A DNA stretch of 26,702 nucleotides from a virus, in the IMG/VR virus record IMGVR_UViG_3300032093_000709, positions 1 through 26,702 of that record; one strand, 5' to 3'. Within the stretch, counting starts at the first letter, position 1. Every line of letters begins with the position of its first letter. A program made the position numbers and the translations under genes. Of this stretch, positions 4,028-22,228 are shown piece by piece. The notes under the pieces are model-generated. The model was not told where the DNA came from. It made no database searches and was given only the letters and a program-made list of their open reading frames with translations.

Positions 4028-5959
4028 ATGATTTATTCGATTGACTTTGAGACACGCAGTAAGGCAGATTTACCAGAGGTAGGCCTTGACAACTATGCCA
4101 ACGATGAGAGCACTGAGGTGCTGTGTATTGCGTTTGGCACCGAACCCGACGATGTGACAGTTGGAACACCCCATATAGATTATAAAATCTGCACCAACAT
4201 TAACTTGCCAGTTTTATTACTGCACGTTGAGAATGGTGGCAAAATAGCAGCCTGGAACGCCATGTTCGAGTATGCGATCTGGAACTGCGTCTGCGTGCCA
4301 AAGTACGGCTGGCCGGTACTAAAGCTCGAGCAGTGTATTGACACCATGGCCGTAGCAGCAGCCAATAACATCCCCCAGAGCCTTGATGACGCCGGTGCCT
4401 TTATGGACGCCCAGTACCAGAAAGACCCTATTGGCAAGAGGCTTATTCAAAAGCTCTGTAAACCCAATAGCAAGGGCGGCTTTAATGACGACCCCGAGCT
4501 GATGGCCCAATTGTTTAAATACTGTGCCCAAGACGTACGCACGGAGATGGCCCTAGGAGCCGTTTTAAGGCCCCTAGAAGACGTCGAACAGGCAGTCTGG
4601 ACCCTCACCCAGCGGATCAATACAAGAGGCGTTCCTGTGGACCCTAGGGAGCTCCAAAATGCCGTCCTGGCAGTGGAGAAGGCGCAGGCAGCCATAGACC
4701 GGGAATGTCTCGAGTTGACCGGCTGTAAGCCAAGCGAGCGTCAAAAGCTCTTAGATTGGCTCAACGCCCAGGGCGCCGGGTTGGAGGATCTGACCGCCGA
4801 GACCGTCTCAAAAATGCTGCAGTGCAGCATTCACACGCGCGTAAAAAAAGCGCTGGAGCTAAGACAGGATGGTAGCCAAACTAGCGTGGCTAAGTACGCT
4901 AAAATGTTGGAGGTACAAAGAGATGGCAGGATCAGAAATACGCTTGTCTACCATGGGGCTAGCACTGGGCGTTGGGCTTCTCGTGGTGGACTTAACCTAC
5001 AGAATATCGCTCGGCCTAATCTATCCGATGAAGAAATTGAGAGATGTATACCTCGAGTTTTTGATCAGGCGACTGGTAGCATGGGAGAGCTATCCTCTCT
5101 TGTTCGAAGTGGAATCAAGGCGCCGGATGGAAAAACCTTTGTGGACGTTGATTTCTCGTCTATTGAGAACCGAGTAGGTGTCTGGCTAGCCGGACAAAAA
5201 GATAAAGTCGAGATGTTTAGAAAGGGATTAGATGAGTACAAAATGTTTGCTTCGCAGTCGCTTTACCGAGTGCCTTACGAACAGGTCACAAAAGATCAAA
5301 GACAAATTGCTAAGTCCGCTGTACTTGGAGCAATGTTTGGACAGGGCGCAAAAGGCCTTGTCCGCTATGCGGAAGGAATGGGGGTTAAGCTCACCGAGGC
5401 GCAGGCAAAGAACGCGGTAGATAACTACCGTGGCTCGTATGTGATGGTCAAGGAGCTATGGGGGGCGTGCGAGAGCGCGGCGATCCAGGCCGTGGAGAAC
5501 CCAGGGTCGCCGTTCTCGGCGGGTGCTAAGATTATATTGAAGTGCGCGAAGAATGCGCTATGGATGCGCCTACCGAGTGGCAGGCTGATCTGTTGGCAGA
5601 GGCCACAGCTCGAGTTGCTCACCACACCCTGGGGGAGTGAAAAGCTCGGCGTTACGGTCCACAGCCAGAACACCTACAGTCGGCAGTGGACTAGGAACGC
5701 CATCATCGGCAGTAGTATTTTCCAGTCCGCGGTACAGGGTACCGCTCGGGACTTTCTTGCCGTGGCTATGCTTAACCTTGATAAAGCCGGTTACGAAGTG
5801 ATTAACAGCGTGCATGATGAAGTCTTACTCCTCGTTGAAGAACAAAACGGGGAGTCCGCAATGGCCGACGTAATCCGTATTATGACTACGCCACCGTCGT
5901 GGGCTCCCGATTTTCCTCTCGCAGCGGAGGGCTGGCACGGCAAGCGTTACCGTAAGTAA
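4028..5959 (+). CDS. Family A DNA polymerase with 3'-5' exonuclease domain
   Basis: A 643-aa replicative phage polymerase. The exonuclease (about residues 1-185) shows ExoI at D6/E8 (SIDFET), ExoII in AAWNAMFEY, and ExoIII in YCAQDVRTEM. The polymerase part has motif A at DVDFSSIENR (D375), motif B at RQIAKSAVLGAMFGQG and motif C at VHDEV (H596-D597-E598). No 5'-3' exonuclease domain is present, as usual for phage enzymes. Proofreading residues look intact. It starts 29 bases after promoter copy 2 with AAGGAG in front of the ATG, so it has its own transcription unit. Its stop abuts the stop of the opposite-strand late operon. No primase or helicase is in the window; they presumably lie upstream. 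Confidence 0.95.
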   Translation: MIYSIDFETRSKADLPEVGLDNYANDESTEVLCIAFGTEPDDVTVGTPHIDYKICTNINLPVLLLHVENGGKIAAWNAMFEYAIWNCVCVPKYGWPVLKLEQCIDTMAVAAANNIPQSLDDAGAFMDAQYQKDPIGKRLIQKLCKPNSKGGFNDDPELMAQLFKYCAQDVRTEMALGAVLRPLEDVEQAVWTLTQRINTRGVPVDPRELQNAVLAVEKAQAAIDRECLELTGCKPSERQKLLDWLNAQGAGLEDLTAETVSKMLQCSIHTRVKKALELRQDGSQTSVAKYAKMLEVQRDGRIRNTLVYHGASTGRWASRGGLNLQNIARPNLSDEEIERCIPRVFDQATGSMGELSSLVRSGIKAPDGKTFVDVDFSSIENRVGVWLAGQKDKVEMFRKGLDEYKMFASQSLYRVPYEQVTKDQRQIAKSAVLGAMFGQGAKGLVRYAEGMGVKLTEAQAKNAVDNYRGSYVMVKELWGACESAAIQAVENPGSPFSAGAKIILKCAKNALWMRLPSGRLICWQRPQLELLTTPWGSEKLGVTVHSQNTYSRQWTRNAIIGSSIFQSAVQGTARDFLAVAMLNLDKAGYEVINSVHDEVLLLVEEQNGESAMADVIRIMTTPPSWAPDFPLAAEGWHGKRYRK

Positions 5960-5966
5960 TTACTTA
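5953..5966. other. Palindrome formed by two convergent stop codons
   Basis: TAAGTAATTACTTA is a perfect 14-base palindrome centred between 5959 and 5960. The plus-strand polymerase stop (5957-5959) and the minus-strand stop (5960-5962) touch with no base between them. It is AT-only apart from one G and one C, and has no T tract, so it is unlikely to be an intrinsic terminator. Confidence 0.7.
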
Positions 5967-8884
5967 GGTATGGAATAGTAGCGGTCTCCAATTTTTACAA
6001 CCTTGGAGCCGCGCTCTTTTTCAGCCGCCTCGGCCTTATCAAATGTCTCATGTGCCTTGCCCTTAAGCATTACGTAGGCATCCCTTGGCAAATCTCTTAG
6101 CATGCGCTCATCGTCTGATGTTGGCGCGACAGATCCCCAGTGACCCAAATCTTCTCCGGTACCAGTCGGGCCCATGCCGTACGCCATGGCTGTCTGGTAA
6201 TCATAACCGGCGCCCTCTGGGTTAAACACACTACCACCACCGGCTTTTCCTTCAACAGCCTTCTTGACAGGTGTTGGGTAAAACAATAAACCAACGTCGT
6301 CATTGGCGTAGCCCTTGTAGCCTGCCTGCTTAATTAGACGCTCTAGCTCGTTGAGTTGTTGCTTCTCATCAACCTGTTGAATGCCTTGGCTCATTAGATA
6401 TGGGTCAAGGCTTTTTTGTTTGGCGATTGCAGACAGCCCCAGTGGGTCTTCATGCAGTGGATAAATATCTTCTGCCATTCCCTGATACTTGTGTGGGCCC
6501 AGTCCTTGCTCTGGTTTAACGCCAGGCTTGTCTACATAAAAATAAGAACGCGGCTTAATATCCAGCGCCTCTTTTAAGCGATCAGCCTCCGCGCCCTTGA
6601 TACCTTTACCGTACATGCGTGGGTCTAGTTGGCTGATTGATGGTGCGTTGGAAAAGTGTACGAACGGCAGTGACTTAGCGTGCTCTAACATTTTACCAAT
6701 TTTACCACCACCAGCAAATCCTGGGTAGTTAATATCAATCTGCTCTGGTGGCAGGATCAATGGTTTCTGTGGTGCGTACTTAAACTGTTGGCCTAACTTA
6801 ACAAGCTGATCATTAATTGCGCTGGGGTCGCCGCCAGACTTTATTAATTGCTCACGCTGGGCTTTTAGCTGATTCATTGCGTTAATTAATTCTTCGTTCA
6901 TGCCAGAGTAGCTAACTAAAGAGTTTTGGCCTCGCGTCTCAGTCGCAGCAGCTAAACGTGCTAGTGGTGAGTACATCTGTGAGTGTGCGCCGTAGGCTAG
7001 TTCTTCACCCTTAGGGCCAAACGATGCACCAGTAGTGCCATGACCAAAGTAATCGTGCACGGCCCTGAACTGTTCGTTTGCCTCTTTGTTAAGCGCTGGG
7101 TGTGGCTCACCACCCTGAAATACTGTTAGGCGTTTATTTTGTAGTGCATCCTCGAGCATCTCTTTGGAGCTCTTGTATGCCCTCTCACCAGTGGGGTCAA
7201 ACGATAACTTAACACCAGATCCCTGGAGTGCCTGGAACTGATCGGCTGTCTCTTTAGCCATCTGCTGGTAAGCCGCCTGGGTTAGCTCGTCGTAGTTAGT
7301 CGCACCAGATTTTTTAACAAGATCTGGATTCATCTGCAGATACTGTTTGAAGATCTGTTGCTTTACCTTTGGATCAACATTTTCCGATGACAGCATTTCA
7401 AACGCCTTTGCTACGGGAGTTTGTTTTTGCGCCGATGATACGGGCATGTTCTGTATTGCCTCTAAGCTAAACTTAGGTGCAATCTTTTTTGCCAGCTCAA
7501 CCGCGGCGTTTACTTTACCACCACCAGCATATTTCTTACCAGGGAAATCCGTAAGCTCTAGGCGTGGGTCGTTCCAGTCTGTTATCTCTAAGTCTTTACG
7601 TGGTGCGATAATGAGCGGGCCACTCTGTAGTTTTTCTTCTGCCCTAAATACCGGTAGCCCAGTGCTCTTGTCGTAGAACTGAGAGTGCCGGCGTGGGTCC
7701 ATACCGATCTGGGTATAGTTAGGATCGTTTAACATCTCGGCCATCATACGACGAACTTCGTCATCGGATGTACCAACGTTAGTGCCCTTTATAAGCGCAA
7801 AGGGGGACTTTGCAGAACCGATCTCTGCGCCTAAGGGGGTGAGAGCCTGCTCCTTCGTTCCGAGGCCTACACGGACCGCCTGGTTGGGCCTAGAGGTAAA
7901 CTCAACATCTTTGAGGTGCCCGGTTCTACCATAACTAATTGCTTTACCAGATGGATCGTGTGTTGTATCCACATACACGCCCTTTTGGGTATATGCTGGA
8001 ATATCTAAACGATTACCGACACGCATGCCCGCAGGAATAGGGGCCAGTGCCTTAGCCTGTTTGCTTGACATTAGAGCATTAATAATTTGCTCGTCAGTAT
8101 ATGCTGGTGGCAGTTCAGACCATTTACGAATAGGTAACTGCTGATTAAGAATGCGTATACGTTCTTCTTGGCTGATGTTACCCTTGAGATATTCTTCTAG
8201 CGCCTGAGCTACTTTGGGATCTTGACCGTGTGGATGCCGTTTAAGTGCAGACAAACCAGCTTTAATTGCGCCACCTTTGGCCTTCATAAACTCCGGCGAC
8301 TCGGCCTCTTCGGGATTGTACTTGGCAAACTTGCCACGGATCTTTGACGGGTCCAATACACCAACGTTTTGGTATCCAGACTCGTTAACGTTAAATGTCT
8401 TAATGCCACTTTCGCGTAGGTGTTGCAAAAACGCTGGAGACTCCATCGTCGTCCAGTTAGAGTGTGGGTCTTCAATTCTGGATTTAAACTGACGCGCCAT
8501 CTTGGGATCTTCAGCATATTTTTTGGCAACGTACGCCTCAACTAATGCGCGCCCTTCTGGTGACATTGGATCAAAATGATTTGACATGTCTACGCTAACT
8601 GGGTACATGGTAGAGCCCTTGTTATAGCTACCCAATGGCACAGCGTCGCCAGTCTTTAAACTAATGTATGGTCCCTTACCTGCGGTAAAACTATCGGCAA
8701 ACTTAGGGCTCTTTGTTACAAACGTAACACCGGGCGTAACAAAATCAACGTCGCGCACAGTTGACTTTAGTGGGTCAAATGCTTCGATGTTTGGATTTGG
8801 ACTGCCGTGATAAAAACCTGGAGTAAACTTTTTCTTGAACTCCTCAACAGCCGCCTTCATTTGTGCAGGTGTTAGCTTTGGCAT
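5960..8884 (-). CDS. Large polyvalent protein with two ADP-ribosyltransferase-like domains and an HDxFGH domain
   Basis: A 974-aa multidomain protein, last gene of the late operon. Residues 20-200 look like an ART domain of the polyvalent-protein type: FYHGS with H26-G27, then PGVTFVTKSPKFADSF, then LDPSKIRGKFAKYNPE. Residues 205-450 are a domain seen in other phage polyvalent proteins (GMRVGNRLDIPAYTQKGVYV and IGMDPRRHSQFYDKSTGLPV). Residues 451-720 hold RAVHDYFGH (H610, D611, H615) and TETRGQNS, resembling a metal or catalytic site. Residues 735-880 are a second ART-like unit (PRSYFYVDKPG, AGYKGYANDD). Residues 885-974 are a small conserved phage module (GHWGSVAP, LKGKAHETFDKAEAAEKERG). The segments are separated by KAKGGAI, YAGGGKV, FAGGGKI and KAGGGSV. 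Probably packaged and injected to modify host proteins; this is inference. The ATG directly abuts the upstream stop, with GGAAG in front. Confidence 0.75.
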   Translation of the reverse strand: MPKLTPAQMKAAVEEFKKKFTPGFYHGSPNPNIEAFDPLKSTVRDVDFVTPGVTFVTKSPKFADSFTAGKGPYISLKTGDAVPLGSYNKGSTMYPVSVDMSNHFDPMSPEGRALVEAYVAKKYAEDPKMARQFKSRIEDPHSNWTTMESPAFLQHLRESGIKTFNVNESGYQNVGVLDPSKIRGKFAKYNPEEAESPEFMKAKGGAIKAGLSALKRHPHGQDPKVAQALEEYLKGNISQEERIRILNQQLPIRKWSELPPAYTDEQIINALMSSKQAKALAPIPAGMRVGNRLDIPAYTQKGVYVDTTHDPSGKAISYGRTGHLKDVEFTSRPNQAVRVGLGTKEQALTPLGAEIGSAKSPFALIKGTNVGTSDDEVRRMMAEMLNDPNYTQIGMDPRRHSQFYDKSTGLPVFRAEEKLQSGPLIIAPRKDLEITDWNDPRLELTDFPGKKYAGGGKVNAAVELAKKIAPKFSLEAIQNMPVSSAQKQTPVAKAFEMLSSENVDPKVKQQIFKQYLQMNPDLVKKSGATNYDELTQAAYQQMAKETADQFQALQGSGVKLSFDPTGERAYKSSKEMLEDALQNKRLTVFQGGEPHPALNKEANEQFRAVHDYFGHGTTGASFGPKGEELAYGAHSQMYSPLARLAAATETRGQNSLVSYSGMNEELINAMNQLKAQREQLIKSGGDPSAINDQLVKLGQQFKYAPQKPLILPPEQIDINYPGFAGGGKIGKMLEHAKSLPFVHFSNAPSISQLDPRMYGKGIKGAEADRLKEALDIKPRSYFYVDKPGVKPEQGLGPHKYQGMAEDIYPLHEDPLGLSAIAKQKSLDPYLMSQGIQQVDEKQQLNELERLIKQAGYKGYANDDVGLLFYPTPVKKAVEGKAGGGSVFNPEGAGYDYQTAMAYGMGPTGTGEDLGHWGSVAPTSDDERMLRDLPRDAYVMLKGKAHETFDKAEAAEKERGSKVVKIGDRYYSIPK

Positions 8885-10759
8885 TTAGCACTTCCACTTA
8901 CGTAACGCTTTGTTGATACGTGAATCTGGATCGTTTGCTGTCTTGGATGATGTTAGCTTCTTCTTCATCCCGCCCATTCTGGCGCAGAATGACTTCTTAC
9001 GTGAGCCGCCCTCTGGCTGTGGTGCCTTTAGCTCGCCGCCAGTCTCACGCTTGTACGACGCGCGCCCCAGTGCGTTCAAGCCACCCGACGGGCTCTTGCC
9101 CTCAGAACGTTGCCATGCTGGTGTTGTAGAGCCGCCTTTAGCGTATCCTAGTTCTTGTAACGAACGTATTAACTTCTCATCAATAATTTGCGATGGAATA
9201 CCAACTGATTGACGATAGTTATAATCGGACAAAGGACGTCCGAGTTCTTTCATGGCTTTGGCTTCTAAGTCACGGAATAAAAACTCACGAGGCACAGGAG
9301 TAAATTGGTCTTCGCCTTTTTCTCCAATAATTAAATTCTTATATCCGGGGTGAACATCTGGTTTTAGTATTTGTGATTCTGCAGTAAATAATTGAGGACC
9401 AATAGCCCCTAACTCAGCCTCACGTAATGCTGGATCAATTGTTTCATCTAAGTGTCTTTGTAGATCAAGTGCTCCAATTCGCTTTTGACCCATAACGTCA
9501 GCGACCGCACCACGACGCTTAAACGCATTTGCAAACTCTAAAAACTCTTTGCTAGTAATATCAGGTGCGCCGGATAGTTCTTTCTTACCAGCCATTTTTG
9601 CGTTTAATGCTTCTATTTGTTGCGGCGTTACTTTACCAGAACGAATGTCTTCTAACAGTTCAGAGTACATTTTTTCAAACACTGGACGATTAGAGCGATG
9701 TGCTGTAGTGCTCATTAACATGGGAGAAACCACAGCACGATTTGAACCGCCAGCTTGGTTAACAGCATTCAATAGTCTATTAGCCGCACCGGGCGAATCC
9801 ATCGCCCAGGTGTACTCTGGATGTAAATTAATAAATCCAGGACCACCGGAGAACCCCCCTGTCGCCTTGGTGCGATCAGCCATTGTGCCGAGTAGTGTTT
9901 GTCCTTCACGAGGTATCAAAACCTCAGATAATTTTTTAGTAACACTTTTTGCTTTACCTAATTTACCGCCTTCAGCTAAGTGCACTAGACCACCGGCGGC
10001 TTTTTTCTCTTCCTCTTCTTTTGAAGGATAGAATATATCTTTAACTTCTTTGCCACCCTGCACGGTTGGTACTAACAAAGATAACCCGGTACCAATTGCA
10101 CGCAAAGGTTTAATGCGTGACTGGCTTAACGCACCACCAACTGTGCCAATGCCACTTAAAATAGCCCCACCGGTGTCGCCTTTTTCTATATCACTAATTG
10201 TTTTACCAGCCTCGGCACCCATGACACCCATGCCACCAATTCGTCTTGCGACACTTGGTTTACCTAGGCGTTCACTTGATATAATATTGGCCGCAGTTTT
10301 TTGTGGGAGAGATGGTTCGGCAGGTTGGTTTTCAATTCCAAGAAAACCCTTACGAATAGGAATTTGTGATCCACGAGATTGTACAGGTTTGCCTCGAGCA
10401 ATTTCACTTTTTTTGTAAGCCTCTTCAAACGTAGCACCACCAACATTGGGTCCAGTAGTCTGTGTGGCTAACCATTTAGCTACTTTGTCACCGCGCGGTG
10501 TGCCCTTTGGCCCAGCAACTTTTTCTGCAACTTTAGTTGCTGTGGTATCAACAGCGGAACCTACAGCGGGGCCGGCAATAGCACCAAAAGTGCTACCAAT
10601 AGCAGCGCCAGCCGCTGGATAAATCATATCACCAGAGCTGCTTTCTTCTTGGGCCTGCAATTGCCTAATGTAGTCCGCTAATTCTTTTGCGTCCTCTACA
10701 TTACCGGCAGCGTCTGCCTTCTCAAATGCGTCTATGGCTTCTTGTAATTGTGGATTCAT
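8885..10759 (-). CDS. Polyvalent / ejection-type protein with membrane segment and basic Cys-containing tail
   Basis: A 624-aa product. The N-terminus (residues 1-38) is a helical hairpin typical of phage ejection proteins (AFEKADAAGNVEDAKELADY). Residues 45-70 are a Gly/Ala-zipper hydrophobic stretch (GAAIGSTFGAIAGPAVGSAV) that could insert in a membrane, and another Gly-rich region follows near 170-225. After two GG motifs (KKAAGGLVHLAEGGKLGK, about 253-266), residues 270-535 form a globular polyvalent-type domain with INLHPEYTWAMDSPGAANR and VVSPMLMSTTAHRSNRPVFE. A third GG motif (YAKGGST, about 538) precedes a C-terminal basic domain: RKKSFCARMGGMKKK, then NDPDSRINKALRKWKC. This matches DUF6321-like tails seen in phage proteins. 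It shares its first base with the upstream stop (TAATG). An injected membrane-active effector is plausible but unproven. Confidence 0.65.
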   Translation of the reverse strand: MNPQLQEAIDAFEKADAAGNVEDAKELADYIRQLQAQEESSSGDMIYPAAGAAIGSTFGAIAGPAVGSAVDTTATKVAEKVAGPKGTPRGDKVAKWLATQTTGPNVGGATFEEAYKKSEIARGKPVQSRGSQIPIRKGFLGIENQPAEPSLPQKTAANIISSERLGKPSVARRIGGMGVMGAEAGKTISDIEKGDTGGAILSGIGTVGGALSQSRIKPLRAIGTGLSLLVPTVQGGKEVKDIFYPSKEEEEKKAAGGLVHLAEGGKLGKAKSVTKKLSEVLIPREGQTLLGTMADRTKATGGFSGGPGFINLHPEYTWAMDSPGAANRLLNAVNQAGGSNRAVVSPMLMSTTAHRSNRPVFEKMYSELLEDIRSGKVTPQQIEALNAKMAGKKELSGAPDITSKEFLEFANAFKRRGAVADVMGQKRIGALDLQRHLDETIDPALREAELGAIGPQLFTAESQILKPDVHPGYKNLIIGEKGEDQFTPVPREFLFRDLEAKAMKELGRPLSDYNYRQSVGIPSQIIDEKLIRSLQELGYAKGGSTTPAWQRSEGKSPSGGLNALGRASYKRETGGELKAPQPEGGSRKKSFCARMGGMKKKLTSSKTANDPDSRINKALRKWKC

Positions 10760-12756
10760 TACTGATATTTTTTCAATAGATTTTTTACGCGGTCTGATTT
10801 AATATCTGTTTTAGATGCTTTGCCTGGTGCTGCAGTCTTTTCTTCTGGGGGAACTTGAAGCGGATTATTATCTGTTATCTTCATACCTAAAATATCGCCA
10901 AGATCTTTATTGTGTTGAGCGATAATTGTCTTTCCTTCGTTTCGGAAAAACACATCAGGATCTGCATAGGTACCGGCACGATCTCTGTATTTAGCATATG
11001 CGTCTGCCATTTTCTTATCAAACTGTGCACGCTCAGCCATAACTTTTGACTGCATTAGCAAAATTTTTGCTGGATCTTTGGTTGATCCAACTGCTTGCTG
11101 TACTAATCTACGCTCGTTGTCTGATACGGCACCTTGTCCAGCTAGGTATACCTTGGCATACTCCAACTCTGCCTGTTTTAAATGTTTTTCAACACGTAAA
11201 AACTTTTCAATTTGTTGCGGAGAAGCCCCGGCTACCGTCAAGTTTCTTTCAAGATCACTAATACCAATTGTACCAAACTGACCAATACTTGCACCACTTT
11301 CAATTTGTTTTAAAATAAATGGTACCATACCCTGTTTAGATAGTTTACCAAATACGGCTTGCATGTCTTTGTCTTGTACAATAGAAAGAATATCATTGTA
11401 CCTAGTTTCACGTTCACCAGCAGATTGACCAAGACGGTTTACTTCAGCAGCAAGTTTACCAACGTCTTTACCTAACTCTTTAGCTGCCTCTCCGGCACCT
11501 GTTTTTTCAACCTCTAATTGACCAACAGATTTACGTTCTACTTTTGGTTCAGATGGTGCACCAGTGGGCACAGCCTCTGCCTGTTTAGTAGATGCCTCAG
11601 TAGGTCTTTGTCCGGATTCAAATTGTGTAATAGCGTTAGATACAATCTTACGAGCCTCATCCGTATTTGGAATAGGTGCGGTTGGGTCGATGCCTAATTT
11701 ACCAGCAATAAACTTAGCATAGTTGGCAGTTGACTCTGGGCTATTACCCGTAGCAGTTGACGGCGCCCATGTCTCGGCTAATAGTGACGGTGTCATAATG
11801 TTGGCATCTTCACCAAATCGCTGTCTAACTGCTGGGCTCTGACCACTGAGCTTTAATTTTAAGTCTTCGTCAAGGGCTTTTTGTCCAGCCTCTAACGTGT
11901 CAAACTTCAAAAACTCGCCGGTCTTAGTATCTCTTAAATTGCCAGGATTGTTGTTACGCACGCTTACAGGGCCCGCAGCAGGAGCAGCGGCAGGAGCAGC
12001 GGCAGGAGCAGCGGCAGGAGCAGCGGCAGGAGCAGCGGCAGGAGCAGCGGCAGCCGGTTTGGCTTCTGCGGGAACGGCGCCGGCAGGTGAGAAGCGATAC
12101 TCTCTTCCATCTGGACCAATGTAACTTTGTGGAGCGTAGCCTTTCTCTTGAATGGTGCGCAAGAAAATATCACGTTGCTCGGGCGGCAATGTTTGTGCAA
12201 ACGCAAGATTCTTCTGTAAGTCTGGGCGTTTTAATTCATGCTCAGATACTAATTTTTCAAATGCAGCAAAATCTCCACCAGCCAATGCTTTCTTAGCAAT
12301 TGGTTGAATGTTTGGTGGCAACGAGTTCAACATGATTTCATACGGAGCTGTACCACCAGCGGCAGGAGCTGCGCCAGGTTGTTGTCCACCAGCACCGCCG
12401 CCGGTCAGACCATACATCTTAGCGGCGCGTTCTTGCGCGGCTTGGTTTGCTCTTACCGCGGCCATCTGACTACGGATGTCAAACAGTTCACGCTGTTCGC
12501 GCATCTTTTGTTCATCGCGTGCCAAAACATTTCGTGTTGGATCAATAGCGGCGTACGCCAGCGCGTCTTTTAATCCGCTGGTAAATAAATTTAATGGGCT
12601 CTCGCGCTCGTCAATGATGCGCTGCATGTTAGCCAAAATGCTTTGTGTTTGCGTTGGGTCTAACGCAACGTTTCCAGGAACAGAGAACCCACCCTTACTC
12701 TTTGGTGGGGTTACTATTCCGCCTAAACCGCTTTGAACTTGAGATTCTTCAGCCAT
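10759..12756 (-). CDS. Virion ejection protein with peptidoglycan-degrading (transglycosylase-like) domain
   Basis: About 665 aa from ATG 12756; a TTG at 12768, directly after the upstream stop, is an alternative start adding four residues. After a helical N-terminal part, a Pro/Ala linker made by a perfect DNA repeat (about residues 235-259) leads to VRNNNPGNLRDTKTGEFLKF at R267. This is the hallmark of a lysozyme/transglycosylase-like domain in virion proteins, followed by SLLAETWAPSTATGNSPEST and NYAKFIAGKLGIDP. The C-terminal half is helical and charged, ending SDRVKNLLKKYQ, as in internal virion proteins. The likely role is opening the cell wall during DNA entry. It sits in a run of ejection genes with near-zero spacing. 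Catalytic residues cannot be named with certainty. Confidence 0.75.
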   Translation of the reverse strand: MAEESQVQSGLGGIVTPPKSKGGFSVPGNVALDPTQTQSILANMQRIIDERESPLNLFTSGLKDALAYAAIDPTRNVLARDEQKMREQRELFDIRSQMAAVRANQAAQERAAKMYGLTGGGAGGQQPGAAPAAGGTAPYEIMLNSLPPNIQPIAKKALAGGDFAAFEKLVSEHELKRPDLQKNLAFAQTLPPEQRDIFLRTIQEKGYAPQSYIGPDGREYRFSPAGAVPAEAKPAAAAPAAAPAAAPAAAPAAAPAAAPAAGPVSVRNNNPGNLRDTKTGEFLKFDTLEAGQKALDEDLKLKLSGQSPAVRQRFGEDANIMTPSLLAETWAPSTATGNSPESTANYAKFIAGKLGIDPTAPIPNTDEARKIVSNAITQFESGQRPTEASTKQAEAVPTGAPSEPKVERKSVGQLEVEKTGAGEAAKELGKDVGKLAAEVNRLGQSAGERETRYNDILSIVQDKDMQAVFGKLSKQGMVPFILKQIESGASIGQFGTIGISDLERNLTVAGASPQQIEKFLRVEKHLKQAELEYAKVYLAGQGAVSDNERRLVQQAVGSTKDPAKILLMQSKVMAERAQFDKKMADAYAKYRDRAGTYADPDVFFRNEGKTIIAQHNKDLGDILGMKITDNNPLQVPPEEKTAAPGKASKTDIKSDRVKNLLKKYQ
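11981..12052 (-). repeat. Six perfect 12-bp tandem repeats encoding a Pro/Ala linker
   Basis: The plus-strand unit GGAGCAGCGGCA is repeated six times with no mismatch. It encodes PAAA-type repeats in the minus-strand ejection protein, just before its transglycosylase-like domain. Each unit is four codons, so copy-number change would alter linker length without a frameshift. Partial units flank it on both sides. Confidence 0.95.
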
Positions 12757-12768
12757 GTTTTTTATCAA

Positions 12769-13761
12769 TCAATCATATGAAAAGTAATCAGACCAATCAG
12801 GATAATCTGTTGGGGGCACAAATGTATCAACGGCGGGAACGCCTCCACCATAATTAAATATGTCATACAGTTGTTGTTCTGTTATGCCATCTACATCAAC
12901 ATCACCTGGATCAACACCCTGTGCCGCTGCAATTTGATTTAGTTGTTCGGGTGTAAATGAGCTACTGCCACCTAAAAACTTACCAATATCTTTAAATGCG
13001 GTTGATAGTCCACCTTTAACGCCTAGATTTTCTAATAGCTTATTCGCACCAGCCGCGCCTCCACCTAATGCGCTGGCGATTGCGGTGATCTGGCTAAGTG
13101 GTGACATCTGCACGTCGCTGGTTACTGTTGTTGGTACAGTCACACCAGACAATATTTTACCTAAATTAGCAACGTTAGTAAACGGCGCGAGCTGTTGAGC
13201 CTGACCAACGTTCATCGCGTTACTAATTCCTTGCTGCGCCACGTTACCTAAATTAGCTGCGCCGCTAACACCTGTCGCTTGGTTCTTTAGGAACGCGTCC
13301 ATTTGATTAGCAAACAACTGTGACGCTGCGTCGGCCTTTGCCTTATTAACGGCGGTTTCGCCACGCAGGCTACCAAAGTTACCAGAGGCAATTGAGGATC
13401 CCAGTACCGGTGCCGTAATGTTTGGTAGCAATTGCTCAAGCTGTTGGTTTTGCGCTTGAAATAAACCACCCATGGCAGTTGACGTATTAGGAGTTACTTG
13501 ACCGGTTGGAGAGGTGATCCAAGGGTTGGCCGCGCCAGATGAAATGCTTTGGAGAGTGTTTTGAGCTTGTGTAAATGGATTAGACGGGCCGGGTTGCAGT
13601 GTATTAATGGCGCCCTGAGCTACCGTGCCACTTAACTGAGGCGCGGCCCCATAGGCGGTGGTTGCCTGGTTGACTAGGTTCTGTTGGGCGGTGTCGTACC
13701 ACGATGGCATCGTGGTCTGTTGCACGCCCTTGTTGGCTATAAAATTGGAAAGTCCTGCCAT
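12769..13761 (-). CDS. Putative internal virion / ejection protein (Ala/Gln/Asn-rich)
   Basis: A 330-aa product, low in charge, rich in Ala, Gln, Asn, Ser and Gly, with predicted helical heptads (GLFQAQNQQLEQLLPNI; VNKAKADAASQLFANQMDAF). The segment GNFGSLRGETAVNKAKADAA resembles a conserved stretch in podovirus structural proteins lying between nozzle and ejection genes. The C-terminal end is acidic and aromatic (DYPDWSDYFSYD). There is no signal peptide or membrane segment. It starts two bases after the upstream gene's stop and is followed closely by the transglycosylase gene, so the three are one unit. The exact virion role is not known. Confidence 0.6.
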   Translation of the reverse strand: MAGLSNFIANKGVQQTTMPSWYDTAQQNLVNQATTAYGAAPQLSGTVAQGAINTLQPGPSNPFTQAQNTLQSISSGAANPWITSPTGQVTPNTSTAMGGLFQAQNQQLEQLLPNITAPVLGSSIASGNFGSLRGETAVNKAKADAASQLFANQMDAFLKNQATGVSGAANLGNVAQQGISNAMNVGQAQQLAPFTNVANLGKILSGVTVPTTVTSDVQMSPLSQITAIASALGGGAAGANKLLENLGVKGGLSTAFKDIGKFLGGSSSFTPEQLNQIAAAQGVDPGDVDVDGITEQQLYDIFNYGGGVPAVDTFVPPTDYPDWSDYFSYD

Positions 13762-13763
13762 AA

Positions 13764-15314
13764 TTATCTCGCTTTACGTTTTGCTTCTAACAAATAACCA
13801 AGTGGGCCTTTACTATCAGGCGGAAGTTCGCGTGAGTCTGCGTTACGTTTATGCTCACGAATTACCTGCAAAAATTCATCTAATAGATGGGCACCACTGT
13901 CGTTACTTCCATTACCAAGACTAGATACAACATCGGCCGGTATTACAAACTCACCGTTGGCTAACATGGCCGGCACGTCATCGCTTGTGCCGTCACCGTC
14001 GCCTTTTACATATCTGTTTTGTAGTCCACCCTCACTAAAGAACTCTGGATTGTGTCCTTCAATAGATCCACCGTCGGCGTATGCGGCTGGTGTGTTCCAA
14101 TATTTTTGTAAACCAAAGTCAGATTTACCTCGGATTAAATTTGGTTTTAGTTTTGTTAATCCGGTTACGGTATCTTGGTAATTAGTGTCGGTGTATGAAT
14201 CTACATTGCTACCATCAGCATAGTTTTGTATATAACCACCTTCGGCGGCACGAACCGGCGACAGTGGTGAGTTAAATTGGTCTATGTTTAGGTCAATTGG
14301 TTGGCCACGAACAATTCCAGCGGTTAAATTTGGTATACCAAAATTTGATAAGCCGCCTTGGTCTGATGTGGTTGTTGGCATCGTGTATTGACCCAAACCT
14401 GGCGCGTTTCTTGCAACCATCGTTCCACCAACACCGCTTAGCATATTATATACTTGGCGCGCCCTGTTGGCCGCCTTTAATGCTTCTTGTGCGCTTGGTA
14501 GCGATGTATCACCACGATCCCACGACGTTGAGCTACCAGATGGTACATCGGTATTTCTCGCCTGCTCTTGAAGATCTTGCTCTACATATTGTGAATCGCC
14601 GGGGTACTGTGCTAAACCGCCCTCGTCTATTGGTTCATTTAATAAATACTCACCGTCGGGTGTGTCAACGTATGGGGCATCAAGATCAATGTCAGCATTT
14701 AAGCTAGGTAAACCACCTTGATCTATTGACTCGTTTAATAAATACTCCCCGTCTGGCATGTCTACATATGGCGCATCAAGGTTCATGTCAGCACTTAAAC
14801 CAGAGCCAGCACCTGCACCAGCGGCACCAGCGGCATTTGCGTAACCTTCCGCACCGGCGGTAATGTCGGCGTCCCAATTTGGGATACCGCTATCAGAGAA
14901 TCCACCCTTGCCAATATAAGAACCAGCGGCAGCCAAAGCCGCGCTCTTTAAAATATCTTCTGGGTCTCTGCCCTGGACGACTCCAGAGGTTGCGCTTGTT
15001 GCGGCAGCTAATGCGGCGGCTTGTCCAGCGGTTAACGCGGCTCCTGTTACATAGGGGGCAGCATATGGAACGGCAACAGAGGCAACGGTTGTCCAACCGC
15101 CAGGAATTGTATCACCTACAAATTCATCAACGTCTGCCAATACATCGCCCGCACCTTGAACCACATCGCTTACCGCATCACCCACTGAGCTAACGGCGTT
15201 TTCAACAATCTCAACAGGATTCCAAGAACCGCCGCCACCATAAAGTTTTATGTGTCGATTGCCGCAGTGCTCAAAAGCACCAAGCGGGAGCATTGTCTCC
15301 AGGTGATATCTCAT
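13764..15314 (-). CDS. Putative ejection/tail protein with GG motifs and SDDxPAMLxxGEFVI segment
   Basis: A 516-aa product. After a conserved-looking N-terminus (MRYHLETMLPLGAFEHCGNR) comes an Ala-rich hydrophobic stretch (VASVAVPYAAPYVTGAALTA) that may cross or enter a membrane. Residues about 172-235 contain a tandem duplication of a 32-aa unit. Downstream are three GG motifs: AAEGGYIQNYADG, YADGGSIEG and FSEGGLQNRY. The C-terminal GTSDDVPAMLANGEFVIPAD is followed by SLGNGSNDSGAHLLDEFLQ. This SD-xPA-x-L-x-x-GEFV pattern is widespread in phage ejection and tape-measure-like proteins. Its ATG overlaps the preceding stop (ATGA). Its position between the nozzle and the transglycosylase protein suggests an ejection protein. 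Confidence 0.6.
   Translation of the reverse strand: MRYHLETMLPLGAFEHCGNRHIKLYGGGGSWNPVEIVENAVSSVGDAVSDVVQGAGDVLADVDEFVGDTIPGGWTTVASVAVPYAAPYVTGAALTAGQAAALAAATSATSGVVQGRDPEDILKSAALAAAGSYIGKGGFSDSGIPNWDADITAGAEGYANAAGAAGAGAGSGLSADMNLDAPYVDMPDGEYLLNESIDQGGLPSLNADIDLDAPYVDTPDGEYLLNEPIDEGGLAQYPGDSQYVEQDLQEQARNTDVPSGSSTSWDRGDTSLPSAQEALKAANRARQVYNMLSGVGGTMVARNAPGLGQYTMPTTTSDQGGLSNFGIPNLTAGIVRGQPIDLNIDQFNSPLSPVRAAEGGYIQNYADGSNVDSYTDTNYQDTVTGLTKLKPNLIRGKSDFGLQKYWNTPAAYADGGSIEGHNPEFFSEGGLQNRYVKGDGDGTSDDVPAMLANGEFVIPADVVSSLGNGSNDSGAHLLDEFLQVIREHKRNADSRELPPDSKGPLGYLLEAKRKAR
14612..14803 (-). repeat. Two tandem 96-bp units encoding a duplicated 32-aa module
   Basis: The protein reads LSADMNLDAPYVDMPDGEYL and then LNADIDLDAPYVDTPDGEYL, each followed by LNE-x-ID-x-GGL. 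The DNA copies start near 14612 and 14708 and have diverged mainly at third positions. So the duplication is in frame and has been kept under selection for some time. Confidence 0.85.
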
Positions 15315-15673
15315 ACCCGCGCCATCCAGTTAAATTCGGGACGGTCAGAGTTTTCAACGGGAACACCTAACCGTTTGAGCATCTCTATAATTTCAATATT
15401 ATCAGCTTTTCCATAGACCGCTTCAATGTCTGATGCTTTAATTTTATCTACGAAATATTTAATAGACCGGGCTAAAGTTAACGGCGTGTCTTCTGTAAAT
15501 AAATGCAACTCCATTGCATGACCTTCAAGTTCTTTTAGAACAAGAACAGAATCATTTTTTTGAAGCATGACGGCAACTCCCGCTTCAAGATGTTTTCTTA
15601 AAGAAACAAGAAGTGTATTGGGGTCAAGGTTGCGCTCAATGGCGTCAGCTTTAATAATCTCTGTTGGGGTCAT
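15311..15673 (-). CDS. GNAT-acetyltransferase-like / T7 gp13-like small virion protein
   Basis: A 120-aa product, predicted as alternating helices and strands. The layout resembles the acetyltransferase-fold phage proteins typified by T7 internal virion protein gp13: an N-terminal helix (TEIIKADAIERNLDP), a strand pair (AVMLQKNDSVLVLKELEGHA), a central helix (SIKYFVDKIKAS), and then IEIIEMLKRLGVPVENSDRP near the C-terminus, where the last helix and strand of a GNAT fold would lie. Catalytic acetyl-CoA residues are not evident, so a structural use of the fold is as likely as an enzyme. Its stop overlaps the start of the ejection gene downstream. No clear Shine-Dalgarno; a hairpin sits just before the start. 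Confidence 0.5.
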   Translation of the reverse strand: MTPTEIIKADAIERNLDPNTLLVSLRKHLEAGVAVMLQKNDSVLVLKELEGHAMELHLFTEDTPLTLARSIKYFVDKIKASDIEAVYGKADNIEIIEMLKRLGVPVENSDRPEFNWMARV

Positions 15674-15689
15674 TTTTTAGATGTGACAA

Positions 15690-15715
15690 AGTAGCCGTGG
15701 GTCAGCAAGGCTACT
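15690..15715 (-). other. Hairpin between two late genes
   Basis: AGTAGCC (minus strand, 15715-15709) pairs with GGCTACT (15696-15690) around a 12-base loop. There is no T tract, so it is a poor terminator. It lies 16 bases upstream of the next start codon and could act as an mRNA processing or stability site, or influence translation of that gene. Confidence 0.4.
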
Positions 15716-15732
15716 GTTGTTTATTCAAATTA

Positions 15733-15891
15733 TTAGGCTGCTGCTTTTTCTTGGGCGCGTTTTGCTAAGGTCTCTTCGACAACCTTGGCAAACTCAGGGT
15801 TTACTGAGTTAGGATCCCGTGCGTGTTTTGCCATAATGGCATCGGCCGCAGCTTTGTCGTTTAGATATTTCATGGTTTGTTGGCCGTGCAT
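15733..15891 (-). CDS. Small helical basic/acidic protein (52 aa), first gene after a promoter motif
   Basis: ATG at 15891 is preceded by a strong AAGGAG ribosome binding site seven bases away. The product starts MHGQQTMKYLNDKAAADAIM and ends with an Ala/Lys-rich helix (EETLAKRAQEKAAA). It is fully helical by eye, with no membrane segment and no cysteines. It lies 29 bases downstream of promoter copy 3, which together with the ribosome binding site makes it a convincing gene despite its size. The ejection-protein block follows. Function unknown; a scaffold-like or chaperone role would be a guess. Confidence 0.7.
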   Translation of the reverse strand: MHGQQTMKYLNDKAAADAIMAKHARDPNSVNPEFAKVVEETLAKRAQEKAAA

Positions 15892-15920
15892 ACTATCTCC
15901 TTGGGTTAAATGCTTCTACT

Positions 15921-15934
15921 TATACTAATGCAAA
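15921..15934 (-). promoter_or_regulatory. Putative phage promoter motif, copy 3 (upstream of ejection block)
   Basis: On the minus strand TTTGCATTAGTATA is followed by AGTAGAAG. It matches the first 14 bases of copies 1 and 2 and points towards the 52-aa gene, 29 bases away. No hairpin terminator precedes it, unlike copy 2, so read-through from the nozzle operon is expected as well. Confidence 0.62.
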
Positions 15935-15957
15935 TATATGGTCTTTATCGCCCTAAA

Positions 15958-16209
15958 TCAAGTGGTTGGACCATTTAAAATAAAACTAAGAGCCGAGGCC
16001 CACTCCTGCCAGGTCTCAAACGCCTCTGGGTCTGGCACGGGGTAGCTTTCAAACGTGGTAAGCTGGCTAATGTTTTTAGCAACCTGTTTCCAGTTTTCTT
16101 CAATGTCGTACATAATTGGCTCTTCGCCAAAGTAATGTAAGAAGTTACCGTTCCAATCTTCCCAAGACATATACTCTGGGTTGATTGGGAAGAATGTTTG
16201 GATACTCAC
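15958..16209 (-). CDS. Small conserved-looking protein downstream of the nozzle gene (83 aa, GTG start)
   Basis: The product starts at GTG 16209, overlapping the nozzle gene's stop as GTGA; coupled translation would make up for the missing ribosome binding site. It is acidic and very Trp-rich for its size (MSWEDWNGNFLHYFGEEP and FETWQEWASALSFILNG). The pattern W-x-x-WN-x-x-FLHYFGEEP is reminiscent of small proteins found beside gp10-like genes in other podovirus-like genomes, but I cannot name a family. It is the last gene before promoter copy 3. Confidence 0.6.
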   Translation of the reverse strand: MSIQTFFPINPEYMSWEDWNGNFLHYFGEEPIMYDIEENWKQVAKNISQLTTFESYPVPDPEAFETWQEWASALSFILNGPTT

Positions 16210-18341
16210 GGACGCTCGTCGCCGTACTCTGCCGTAATCAACAGGCGGCCCATTTGGAAGTCACCGTCGAGCACGTTGGACTCAAACTTTAACCTAACCT
16301 CACGATGCTCTACGCGCAGGTCAATCTTGCCGGTGTCTGGGTCAAAGTAAAATGGTCCAGAGGTTTCTGTATCTCCGCGGGCAAACTTACGGCCCAGGAT
16401 AGTCATAGCCATCGTGCCGGACTGTACAAAATCTGGTTCAATACGTCTTAGGTGCATACGTCGGTTTACGCCGGTGGCGCTGTCTTGTGATGGTATCCCA
16501 CCAACCCAGCTAATGTCGCAAGTCGTGATGCTAGATGTAATGGCAAACTCTTGGTTAAACGTAATTGCGTTTGTGCCAAACTCATGCTGCCAGAGTGGAT
16601 ATCCACCTTCAATATAATATATGTAATCGCCGGCTACTTGAATTGGGTCAAAGTTTTCTTCTACAGTGATTAACGTCACACCCTCTGGGTTTGTGGCGGT
16701 AATTGCTGAGGTAAACATAAAGACACTTGTCGTAATTTTATATACTACGGGCGTGCCTGTGTTTGTTAATGATATATAATCACCGGCACCAAAGGTAGCC
16801 GTAACGTCCCCGTTAACATATACTTGGTTATTATTTGCAACCGGTTCGCTTGGTGGGTTATCAATTACCTCAAACGGTATGCTAAATGTATTAATGTCTT
16901 CCCATCCGGCCCAGATAGGTGTTGGGAATACCTCGGTGGTGTATCCGCATGATCTACGTGATCCAGGCGCGCTTCCGGCGTCGTACCAGATTTTGTCTTT
17001 GACGTTGTATACAATTGCGTCGGTGCATTCTGTGGCATCGCCGCGGGGATAAAAAAACCAGATCTCATTATACCTAGGTACTTTGGTTGCCCATACCTTT
17101 TGGCGCTGTACAAAGTTGAGGTTATCAAATAGCCAGTTTACGTTTTTATCATTTGGCAGTACAGAGACCGCACCATTGTATAGGTAGAAACGGTCGACAC
17201 CCATCCAGTAAAATATACCATCCATCTCAACAAAGCACGAGGATGATATGGTAGAGATCTGGCTAGAAATAATATCATAGCGCCAGTACAACGGAGCCGT
17301 GCCAGTAAATGAGACACGGATCAAACTATCGGTTGCCCAGAACAATCCAGATGGTGAGTTAGTACCGCCACGCACCGGTATACCCTTAACAATCTTAGAC
17401 GAGGCCATGTTGACCTGGTTAGACGTTGGGCCATTCCAGTCGGTGATCGTTTGCTGATTGTATGTGGTTAAGTCTGCGTTTGTGTCAACGTTGTTGTTAG
17501 CAATAAAACCATCCGACCCATACACAAACGTGTAGGGATACAACACGCAAACACCACCATCTACTACGATTGGACGATAGGTTGGGTTTTGACCACCCGT
17601 ATCAGCCAGTCCATAAAAATTCCATTCGTTCAGTGAGTCTGGTAAAAGTCCACCAGTTAATACCTGGGTCTGTATGGCGTTGTCAATGTTTACCAAATTA
17701 CGGCCGGGGTGTGCTAATACCTGTAGTGACCCGCCCGCTGGCGAGTACTGTAAGTCAAACTGCCACAACAAAGTTGGATCTGGTGTAAACGTTACGTCAT
17801 ACAATGACACTGTTGTTGGTGTTCCTGCAATACTAGCGGCCGTTACAGTTACCGTTGTATTTGGTGCTAAATACGTTGCACTTACCACTGTAGTTGAAGT
17901 AGTAATGTCGTCGTCAAATATAACCGTCATTGCGGCGGGAAACGCTGCTGTTACGTCGCCAGCAATTACAAAGGTGCTAGTTGTATTTGATACCAACGTA
18001 AACGGTGAGTAGCCGGGTAAAATATTTACAGTAAGCGGACCACTGCCAACGCCAAACGTAGTGCCTGTTGTAAATGCTTCTAAACCATACTGGTTACCAA
18101 CAAAAATGTAGTTAACTCCGTTAAAGGAGTTAGATATCATGCCTCTTGGTATGCCGGTAAACGTTGCAAACAACTCACGGTAGCCGCCCATTTTTCTGGG
18201 TGTGCCACGTTGAAAACGGCACCATTCTCCGTCACTAAACTCGCGTGACTCAAATACTGTGCCGTCTCGTTTTATGCCTGGCTGTACGCCAAGCGTGTAG
18301 ACCAGATTATACTGATCTGGTAGCTTGTTTTCTCCAGCCAT
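16206..18341 (-). CDS. Tail nozzle / packaged-DNA stabilisation protein, P22 gp10-like
   Basis: A 711-aa, strand-rich protein of the P22 gp10 type, the beta-propeller hub or nozzle that closes the head after packaging. Typical features are an N-terminal segment (ESREFSDGEWCRFQRGTPRK, GGYRELFATF), propeller-blade strands such as SNSFNGVNYIFVGNQYGLEA, the mid-protein FYWMGVDRFYLYNG, and VWATKVPRYNEIWFFYPRGD. A domain with three Thr/Val-rich repeats (about residues 95-180) looks like an added surface domain. Its place after the gp4-like adaptors matches the P22 order. It shares one base with the fibre-like gene upstream (TAATG) and overlaps the 83-aa gene downstream. Confidence 0.8.
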   Translation of the reverse strand: MAGENKLPDQYNLVYTLGVQPGIKRDGTVFESREFSDGEWCRFQRGTPRKMGGYRELFATFTGIPRGMISNSFNGVNYIFVGNQYGLEAFTTGTTFGVGSGPLTVNILPGYSPFTLVSNTTSTFVIAGDVTAAFPAAMTVIFDDDITTSTTVVSATYLAPNTTVTVTAASIAGTPTTVSLYDVTFTPDPTLLWQFDLQYSPAGGSLQVLAHPGRNLVNIDNAIQTQVLTGGLLPDSLNEWNFYGLADTGGQNPTYRPIVVDGGVCVLYPYTFVYGSDGFIANNNVDTNADLTTYNQQTITDWNGPTSNQVNMASSKIVKGIPVRGGTNSPSGLFWATDSLIRVSFTGTAPLYWRYDIISSQISTISSSCFVEMDGIFYWMGVDRFYLYNGAVSVLPNDKNVNWLFDNLNFVQRQKVWATKVPRYNEIWFFYPRGDATECTDAIVYNVKDKIWYDAGSAPGSRRSCGYTTEVFPTPIWAGWEDINTFSIPFEVIDNPPSEPVANNNQVYVNGDVTATFGAGDYISLTNTGTPVVYKITTSVFMFTSAITATNPEGVTLITVEENFDPIQVAGDYIYYIEGGYPLWQHEFGTNAITFNQEFAITSSITTCDISWVGGIPSQDSATGVNRRMHLRRIEPDFVQSGTMAMTILGRKFARGDTETSGPFYFDPDTGKIDLRVEHREVRLKFESNVLDGDFQMGRLLITAEYGDERP

Positions 18342-21475: not shown

Positions 21476-22228
21476 TTAGCAAGCCTTTCCGCCGCGTTTT
21501 TTACCGGTTAGTTTACGGTACTTTGCCTCGTAGCTAGATGGGTCTTTTTCAGCAATTCTTTTTTCTTGTTCGGCGGCTTCTTTGTTTTGCTCTGGTGTAC
21601 CCATCACGTTTTCGTATAGTTTTTTACCGACGGCTTTAATATTGTCTACAATACCGCCGTCAGCATACTTTTTTACTTCACCGCCTTTTTTAGCGTAGCC
21701 CATCTTGTTACGGACGTTGGTTGGGAGTTTGGCCAGGCCAGGGTTCTCTTCTGCGTCGACAGATTTTAACGAGCCGCCCTCAGCACACTTTTTTGCGTAG
21801 CCACCCTTCTTCATCATTGGGGGCATCGCACCCATGTCTGGCGCTGGCTCGGCAATGTTTGACATCGCTGGCTTAATAGCCGCCTTAGATGGAGCTGCGG
21901 CTTTTTTGGGTTTGGATAGTTTAATTTTCTGGATGTCTTTAATGTCGCCAGAGTCTTTCTTCATACCAATCGAACCGCCCGCCTTGTAGCGACCAACGCA
22001 ACCGCCGTCTTTCTTCTTCATGCGGCCACCCTTTTTGAGTTTGGCCAGGTCAGTCTTATCACCCTCGTGTGACTGCTTGTCGTGCATGGCAAACGCCTTT
22101 TTCACGACTTTTTTGTCTTGTGCAATGTCTTCGCTCATCTCTGACTTTTCAGAGTGGCGTGATTTATACTTTACAGCGCCACCTTCTTTGAAGCACTGCA
22201 TCTTTGGTGAAGATTTAAAGCCGTCCAT
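21476..22228 (-). CDS. Lys/Gly-rich protein with an array of GG motifs (250 aa)
   Basis: The ATG at 22228 has AAGGA in front and lies 31 bases after promoter copy 4. The sequence is strongly basic and low in complexity, with repeated short motifs: [66 protein letters not shown]. Cysteines occur at four or more places, often next to a GG. Between them is a charged helical part ([20 protein letters not shown]). No enzyme domain is visible. It heads the operon of head-tail connector genes, so a minor virion or DNA-binding head protein is likely. Its motifs match those at the domain borders of the polyvalent proteins. Confidence 0.6.

Follow-up and report, generated by a model that had tools for sequence, protein, structure and literature searches.

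A phage-encoded protein built of exchangeable GG-linked cassettes carries an unnamed all-helical HDxFGH domain, probably a metal-dependent enzyme

Results

A complete minus-strand ORF beside the virion genes

The window, which is the whole stretch of 26,702 nucleotides analyzed here, comes from a virus record (IMG/VR, IMGVR_UViG_3300032093_000709). It encodes a polyvalent-type protein of 974 aa with its ATG at 8884 and its stop codon at 5960-5962, while the plus-strand frame of the same interval contains many stops (Table 1). The original prediction, made from the sequence alone, had placed this ORF exactly but gave no strand, and its positions for H610-D611, H615 and the TETRGQNS stretch with E649 were correct. 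Relatives were found in IMG/VR at 21 loci on about 20 contigs; one is identical and the others share 48-95% identity in their best segment. Compared with these relatives, dN/dS (given where computable, with several dS values saturated) was 0.02-0.10 for modules B, C and D, about 0.10 for module E and 0.15-0.31 for module A, with the lowest values in module C (0.025-0.056) and the highest in module A. Related sequences at 21 loci, low dN/dS and an invariant HDxxGH motif confirm that the ORF is real rather than a product of chance, and that it is under strong purifying selection.

The ORF ends against a convergent DNA polymerase gene (4028-5959; DNA_pol_A, Pfam) and begins with zero intergenic gap after a modular neighbor. 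In relatives of this neighbor the N-terminal part and the C-terminal DUF6321 are shared and the middle is exchanged. Further upstream lies a block of virion and ejection genes arranged as in the isolated Caulobacter phage GB2A. There, a virion structural protein (the homologue of 16206-18341) is followed by a small ORF, the tape measure, two hypothetical genes and a "lytic tail protein", and then by convergent replication genes including the DNA polymerase. This order recurs in the window, where the genes at 8885-10759 and 5960-8884 occupy the last slots. Elsewhere in the window, the plus-strand gene at 1524-1979 encodes a rubrerythrin (Pfam E 5e-25).

Table 1. Features of the 974-aa ORF and its surroundings in the window.
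Feature	Position	Strand	Basis or remark
Polyvalent-type protein, complete ORF	5960..8884	minus	974 aa
Module A, residues 1-207, ART-PolyVal-related	8264..8884	minus	Weak Pfam match and profile-profile match
GG linker 1, MKAKGG (G204-G205)	8270..8275	minus	Exchange point; L014 and L016 switch there
Module B, residues 208-453, conserved domain	7526..8263	minus
GG linker 2, KKYAGGG (G454-G456)	7517..7525	minus
Module C, residues 457-722, all-helical HDxFGH domain	6719..7516	minus	AlphaFold2 model, PHROG 3170
E545-x3-Q549, conserved pair in long upstream helix of C	7238..7252	minus
H610-D611-x-F-G-H615, invariant putative metal ligands	7040..7057	minus
E627 and H634	6983..7006	minus	Invariant in 81 cores
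E649-T-R-G-Q653, third putative carboxylate ligand and conserved Gln	6926..6940	minus
GG linker 3, GFAGGG (G725-G727)	6704..6712	minus
Module D, residues 728-880, with invariant H743	6245..6703	minus	AlphaFold2 model
GG linker 4, GKAGGG (G882-G884)	6233..6241	minus
Module E, residues 885-974, C-terminal module	5963..6232	minus
Upstream neighbor, modular, C-terminal DUF6321 (PF19846)	8885..10759	minus	Zero intergenic gap to the 974-aa ORF
Virion/ejection gene block	10759..18341	minus	Gene order as in Caulobacter phage GB2A
phrog_873 "endolysin" stretch	10759-12768	minus
Gene in virion/ejection block	12769-13761	minus
Tape-measure-like gene	13764-15314	minus
Stabilization-protein homologue	16206-18341	minus

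Five cassettes exchanged at GG linkers

The relatives do not align with the 974-aa protein from end to end; some blocks are common to them and others are missing. For example, one relative (L014) consists of block A, a foreign block and block E, and another (L016) joins block A directly to block E. In L010, module B is followed by module D, with module C skipped and the junction at GG linker 2, while in L006 module B is divergent and an additional block lies between D and E. Module A, in some cases together with B, lies within or beside longer chains at six loci (L009, L011, L012, L016, L019 and L021), some of them including parts of the 8885-10759 protein, and in L012 and L016 the chain ends in DUF6321-like sequence in place of E. 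The switch points coincide with the GG motifs at residues 204-205, 454-456, 725-727 and 882-884. The protein thus consists of five separable cassettes, and (Y/F)-A-x-GG linkers are the points of recombination among the relatives. A polyvalent-type modular chain had been anticipated from the sequence, and modules A, B and C are indeed each separable in relatives; the original segmentation was broadly right, but the breakpoints of the homologues shift the borders to those listed in Table 1.

Over 20 relatives, the pattern A.GG was observed 75 times against 14.8 in shuffled sequences, and [YF]A.GG 35 times against 1.1, figures that are descriptive as the 20 sequences are kin. All 15 relatives compared, down to 34% identity, keep the two glycines that follow module B. 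Since the motif is enriched, sits at the switch points and has invariant glycines, we regard the linker as a conserved feature. The enrichment at module borders and the persistence of the glycines after B would also suit processing sites, where individual effectors would be released from the chain during delivery or ahead of it, and cleavage of polyvalent proteins by peptidases was predicted by Iyer et al. 2017 (PMC5512222). Against this, a Pfam search of the 974-aa chain found no peptidase family, GG motifs of similar type are also present elsewhere among the proteins that the window encodes, and a flexible hinge would account for the linker equally well. We therefore hold processing to be rather doubtful; it would in any case add to the reading of the protein as an ejected effector (see Discussion) and not replace it. 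A separate minus-strand gene at 21476-22228 encodes a 250-aa Lys/Gly-rich protein with nine linker-like GG motifs and no family match.

An ART-PolyVal-related N-terminal module and three further cassettes

Module A is matched by the Pfam family ART-PolyVal (PF18760) with E 0.019 and 16.2 bits, below the curated cut-off of 31.2 bits. Profile-profile comparison gave a much clearer result: Prob 91.9% and E 7e-7 over 162 columns (columns 4-196), where the ART-PolyVal profile was built from five regions of bacterial genomes, E-values are per single comparison and unrelated-pair controls reached 0.2-1.4%. The alignment covers module A over nearly its whole length, from a YHGSP start to an IRGKFAKYNPE end, and this full-length match supports a relationship to ADP-ribosyltransferases (ARTs). 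H26, the presumed strand-1 His, and the acidic E168 are the same in all 18 sequences of module A. Unlike the ART-PolyVal (Tox-ART-HYD2-like) clade, for which Iyer et al. (PMC5512222) give the residues H, Y and D, module A has Glu168 in place of the Asp and Thr or Phe at the presumed position of the canonical strand-2 Tyr. With this Tyr replaced and the Pfam score below cut-off, module A may be inactive.

The original prediction had framed the protein as carrying two ART-like domains, at residues 20-200 and again further downstream. The N-terminal one is borne out by the profile comparison; the second, module D, found no significant profile or PDB fold match. Its AlphaFold2 model has pLDDT 85 and pTM 0.81. 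The profile comparison gave Prob 1%, leaving an ART assignment by sequence unsupported. Foldseek against PDB gave a best E of 0.12, which is not significant, and the weak matches include the ART-fold proteins OspC3 (three chains), PltA and TccC3. Conceivably, module D is a degenerate second ART.

Module B is also found within a large protein of Roseobacter phage CRP-207 and podovirus ctYwJ313, encoded there between the genes for portal and capsid. Module E has no Pfam match and may serve incorporation into the virion, although a role as a widespread virion tag is not borne out, because its matches are limited to 12 close loci.

Module C is a confidently modeled all-helical domain

A catalytic-looking HDxFGH domain had been proposed for residues 451-720. 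The corresponding module C yields a confident, enzyme-like AlphaFold2 model (39 sequences; pLDDT 95, pTM 0.90) that is helical nearly throughout, with H610-H615 at one helix end, E627 and H634 on the next helix and E649 on the helix thereafter. Foldseek matched this model to no solved structure in PDB (best E 0.9), and no family was found in Pfam or NCBIfam; matches to FAS_I_H, UPF0449 and DUF1592 in Pfam fell below cut-off, were not family-wide and were taken as chance. The function-unassigned PHROG 3170 matches residues 532-662 with E 3.3e-22. All 39 aligned phage domains carry HDxxGH, as do all of 81 non-redundant cores from phages and bacteria, in which N603, F606, R607, H610, D611, G614, H615, F622, E627, H634 and E649 are all conserved at 100% and Q653 at 98%. 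The invariant His/Asp/Glu set fits the earlier suggestion of a new hydrolase or metal enzyme, and module C probably works as a metal-dependent enzyme from an unnamed, all-helical family. In this enzyme, H610, H615 and E649 would form the putative metal site together with D611, E627 and H634, and R607 and Q653 may help to hold a small substrate.

Relatives of module C in phages

A profile search of IMG/VR with module C returned at least 564 confirmed stretches. Relatives include domains of other polyvalent proteins, genes of mycobacteriophages and Gordonia phages, early genes of T7-like phages and solo genes on bacterial chromosomes. Among viral models, Foldseek recovered the module C family itself and small phage proteins, one of them from Pseudomonas phage LKA1, at probability 1.00 and 12-25% identity. 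LKA1 ORF7 is a protein of 188 aa encoded in the early region (L188:3662-4228). Its relatives (PHROG 7806) occur in 123 phage records and belong to the early genes in T7-like phages that infect Pseudomonas and other hosts; phi15 ORF2 lies ahead of the RNA polymerase gene, and in phage Kanksi the relative is gene 1. Seven LKA1-like proteins matched module C by profile at Prob 97.1% and E 6e-11 over 119 columns. They conserve N, F-R, H-D, the second His (mostly as GH), Glu, Asp/Glu and usually Gln, with Gln at the position of H634 and Asp at that of E649, and their motif is HDxGH, one residue shorter than HDxFGH.

Thus PHROG 7806 carries the same domain as module C by profile and fold, and PHROG 3170, with Mycobacterium phage Sebata gp107 and Gordonia phage Skog gp166, does so by sequence. 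In contrast to module C, which is part of a long chain, the proteins of both groups are single-domain or short, and those of PHROG 7806 are early-region genes. One record names Skog gp166 "glycosylase" and another lists it as hypothetical; the name looks unsupported, because HDxFGH is the only domain recognized. The genome of Gordonia phage Yvonnetastic contains an LKA1-like ORF where no gene is annotated. The open-access literature yielded no paper on the function of the HDxFGH domain, phi15 ORF2 or LKA1 ORF7.

Chromosomal relatives fall into distinct neighborhoods

A profile search of bacterial and archaeal genomes found 105 stretches. Solo chromosomal HDxFGH genes encode roughly 160-300 aa and fall mainly into three clades of the tree, in which the chromosomal-solo label changes at least 7 times, as forced by well-supported branches. 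The first clade holds solo genes of Micromonosporaceae and Pseudonocardiaceae, which branch together with those of mycobacteriophages and Gordonia phages. At about 20 Micromonosporaceae loci a Cas3-HD gene lies some 3.5 kb away, with an N6-methylase on the opposite side where checked, and this synteny may reflect simple inheritance; UvrD is also found near some chromosomal relatives that have N6-methylase and Cas3 genes nearby. Two loci (L118 and L137) have upstream repeat-like ORFs that resemble CRISPR arrays and are candidates for such.

The second clade comprises marine Proteobacteria in which the gene shares a cassette with an AdoHcyase-like gene and DUF3293. This three-gene cassette was seen in scattered marine bacteria (L157, L162, L170, L116 and L158/L160). 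For the Ruegeria and Enterovibrio HDxFGH queries, the query genome was the sole match among 149 and 150 sampled genomes of the family, respectively. Finally, the third clade belongs to Actinomycetota and lies near aminotransferase class V (cysteine-desulfurase-like) genes together with sulfur-metabolism or FGE-sulfatase genes. At four loci (L174, L173, L187 and L175), neighbors of the HDxFGH gene encode aminotransferase class V, a methyltransferase, a Cys/Met enzyme, homocysteine S-methyltransferase, FGE-sulfatase or ThiS; these surroundings are possibly clusters for sulfur-containing natural products. Assigning a function from chromosomal neighbors was not successful: there are three differing contexts, one of them phylogenetically confined, and because the contexts differ no single pathway follows. 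Nevertheless, these contexts speak for a genuine catalyst and against a mere structural part of the virion.

Candidate chemistries for module C

The HDxFGH motif, followed by one further helix and then a Glu on the next (H610, H615 and E649), resembles the biopterin-dependent aromatic amino acid hydroxylases (PF00351), which are mononuclear Fe(II) oxygenases with a 2-His-1-carboxylate site: PheH has 'LARLYWYTVEFGL' where module C has 'LARLAAATETRGQN'. Comparison of module C with six PheH-type sequences gave, with wide profiles, Prob 18% and P 0.0013, a P value that is biased because the motif itself had prompted the comparison. Across the comparisons Prob was 3-18% and depended on the motif alone. 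Structures of these hydroxylases are present in PDB, yet the pLDDT 95 model found no match there; nor was there a significant profile match or a Pfam match, and the LKA1-like relatives have the shorter HDxGH. We therefore treat the likeness as one of motif only and a distant PheH-like hydroxylase as improbable.

A metal-dependent hydrolase or lyase, such as a nucleotidase or phosphodiesterase with HD-domain-like chemistry in a fold of its own, is the likelier of the two, if still tentative; the remaining readings are some other chemistry or none. An "HD" pair with additional His, Glu and Gln suits hydrolysis as well as oxidation. Enzymes that degrade nucleotides or SAM, such as the T3 SAMase, are among the first-expressed genes of phages, and some chromosomal relatives lie near N6-methylase, UvrD, Cas3 or AdoHcyase-like genes. 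On the other hand, Foldseek found no HD-domain fold in PDB and the upstream His expected of that family is not invariant in the 39 phage domains, so that module C is not assigned to the HD-domain phosphohydrolases proper. The family appears as an unrecognized group whose chemistry could be new.

Discussion

The protein joins at least two disparate domains in one polypeptide and is encoded by a phage near virion genes, in a tail-block order shared with GB2A. In these respects, and in its ART-type domain, it resembles the polyvalent proteins described by Iyer et al. 2017 (PMC5512222). It differs from them in two ways: the domain of module C goes unnamed in the accessible text of that paper and has no Pfam or NCBIfam model, and the cassettes are joined by a conserved GG linker, the words "glycine" and "linker" not being found in that text.

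Because the gene order matches that of an isolated phage, expression with the virion genes and packaging are likely. The protein would be produced late, alongside the tail proteins and the internal proteins of the particle, packaged, and then ejected with the DNA, as the gene order suggests. The same order in a tail and ejection block could belong to a structural ejection protein, comparable to the internal core proteins of T7, whose domains are non-enzymatic blocks or remnants, and module D has a weak fold match to a pre-ejectosome chain of cyanophage A4 (E 0.14). However, close relatives do without individual modules or exchange them, and module C keeps a dense set of invariant polar residues across phages and bacteria and also exists as small solo genes. 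A purely structural role is thus unlikely in our view. We favor, with fair though not high confidence, an ejected polyvalent effector in which module C is a probable metal-dependent enzyme. Within this effector, module A would probably modify a host protein or nucleotide, since it is ART-like. Module C may act on a host metabolite, nucleotide or defense component in the first minutes of infection, a timing suggested by its distant relatives among the first genes of T7-like phages.

Taken together, the phage and chromosomal relatives can tentatively be read as a new superfamily of all-helical metalloenzymes. Phages would bring it into play right as infection begins, and in two ways: as a cassette injected within polyvalent proteins and as an early-expressed gene of T7-like phages. 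Bacteria would have taken it up several times into accessory pathways, namely the AdoHcyase-like/DUF3293 cassettes, the sulfur-compound clusters and the Cas3/N6-methylase neighborhoods.

The GG-joined cassettes offer a clear case of phages shuffling delivered effectors. No Pfam or NCBIfam model covers the HDxFGH family, which counts several hundred phage members at the least and roughly a hundred in bacterial assemblies, and it has neither a relative in PDB nor a known activity. As its members are located among the anti-host tools of phages and in discrete bacterial operons, a single assay on a small solo member could explain a widespread function of early infection.
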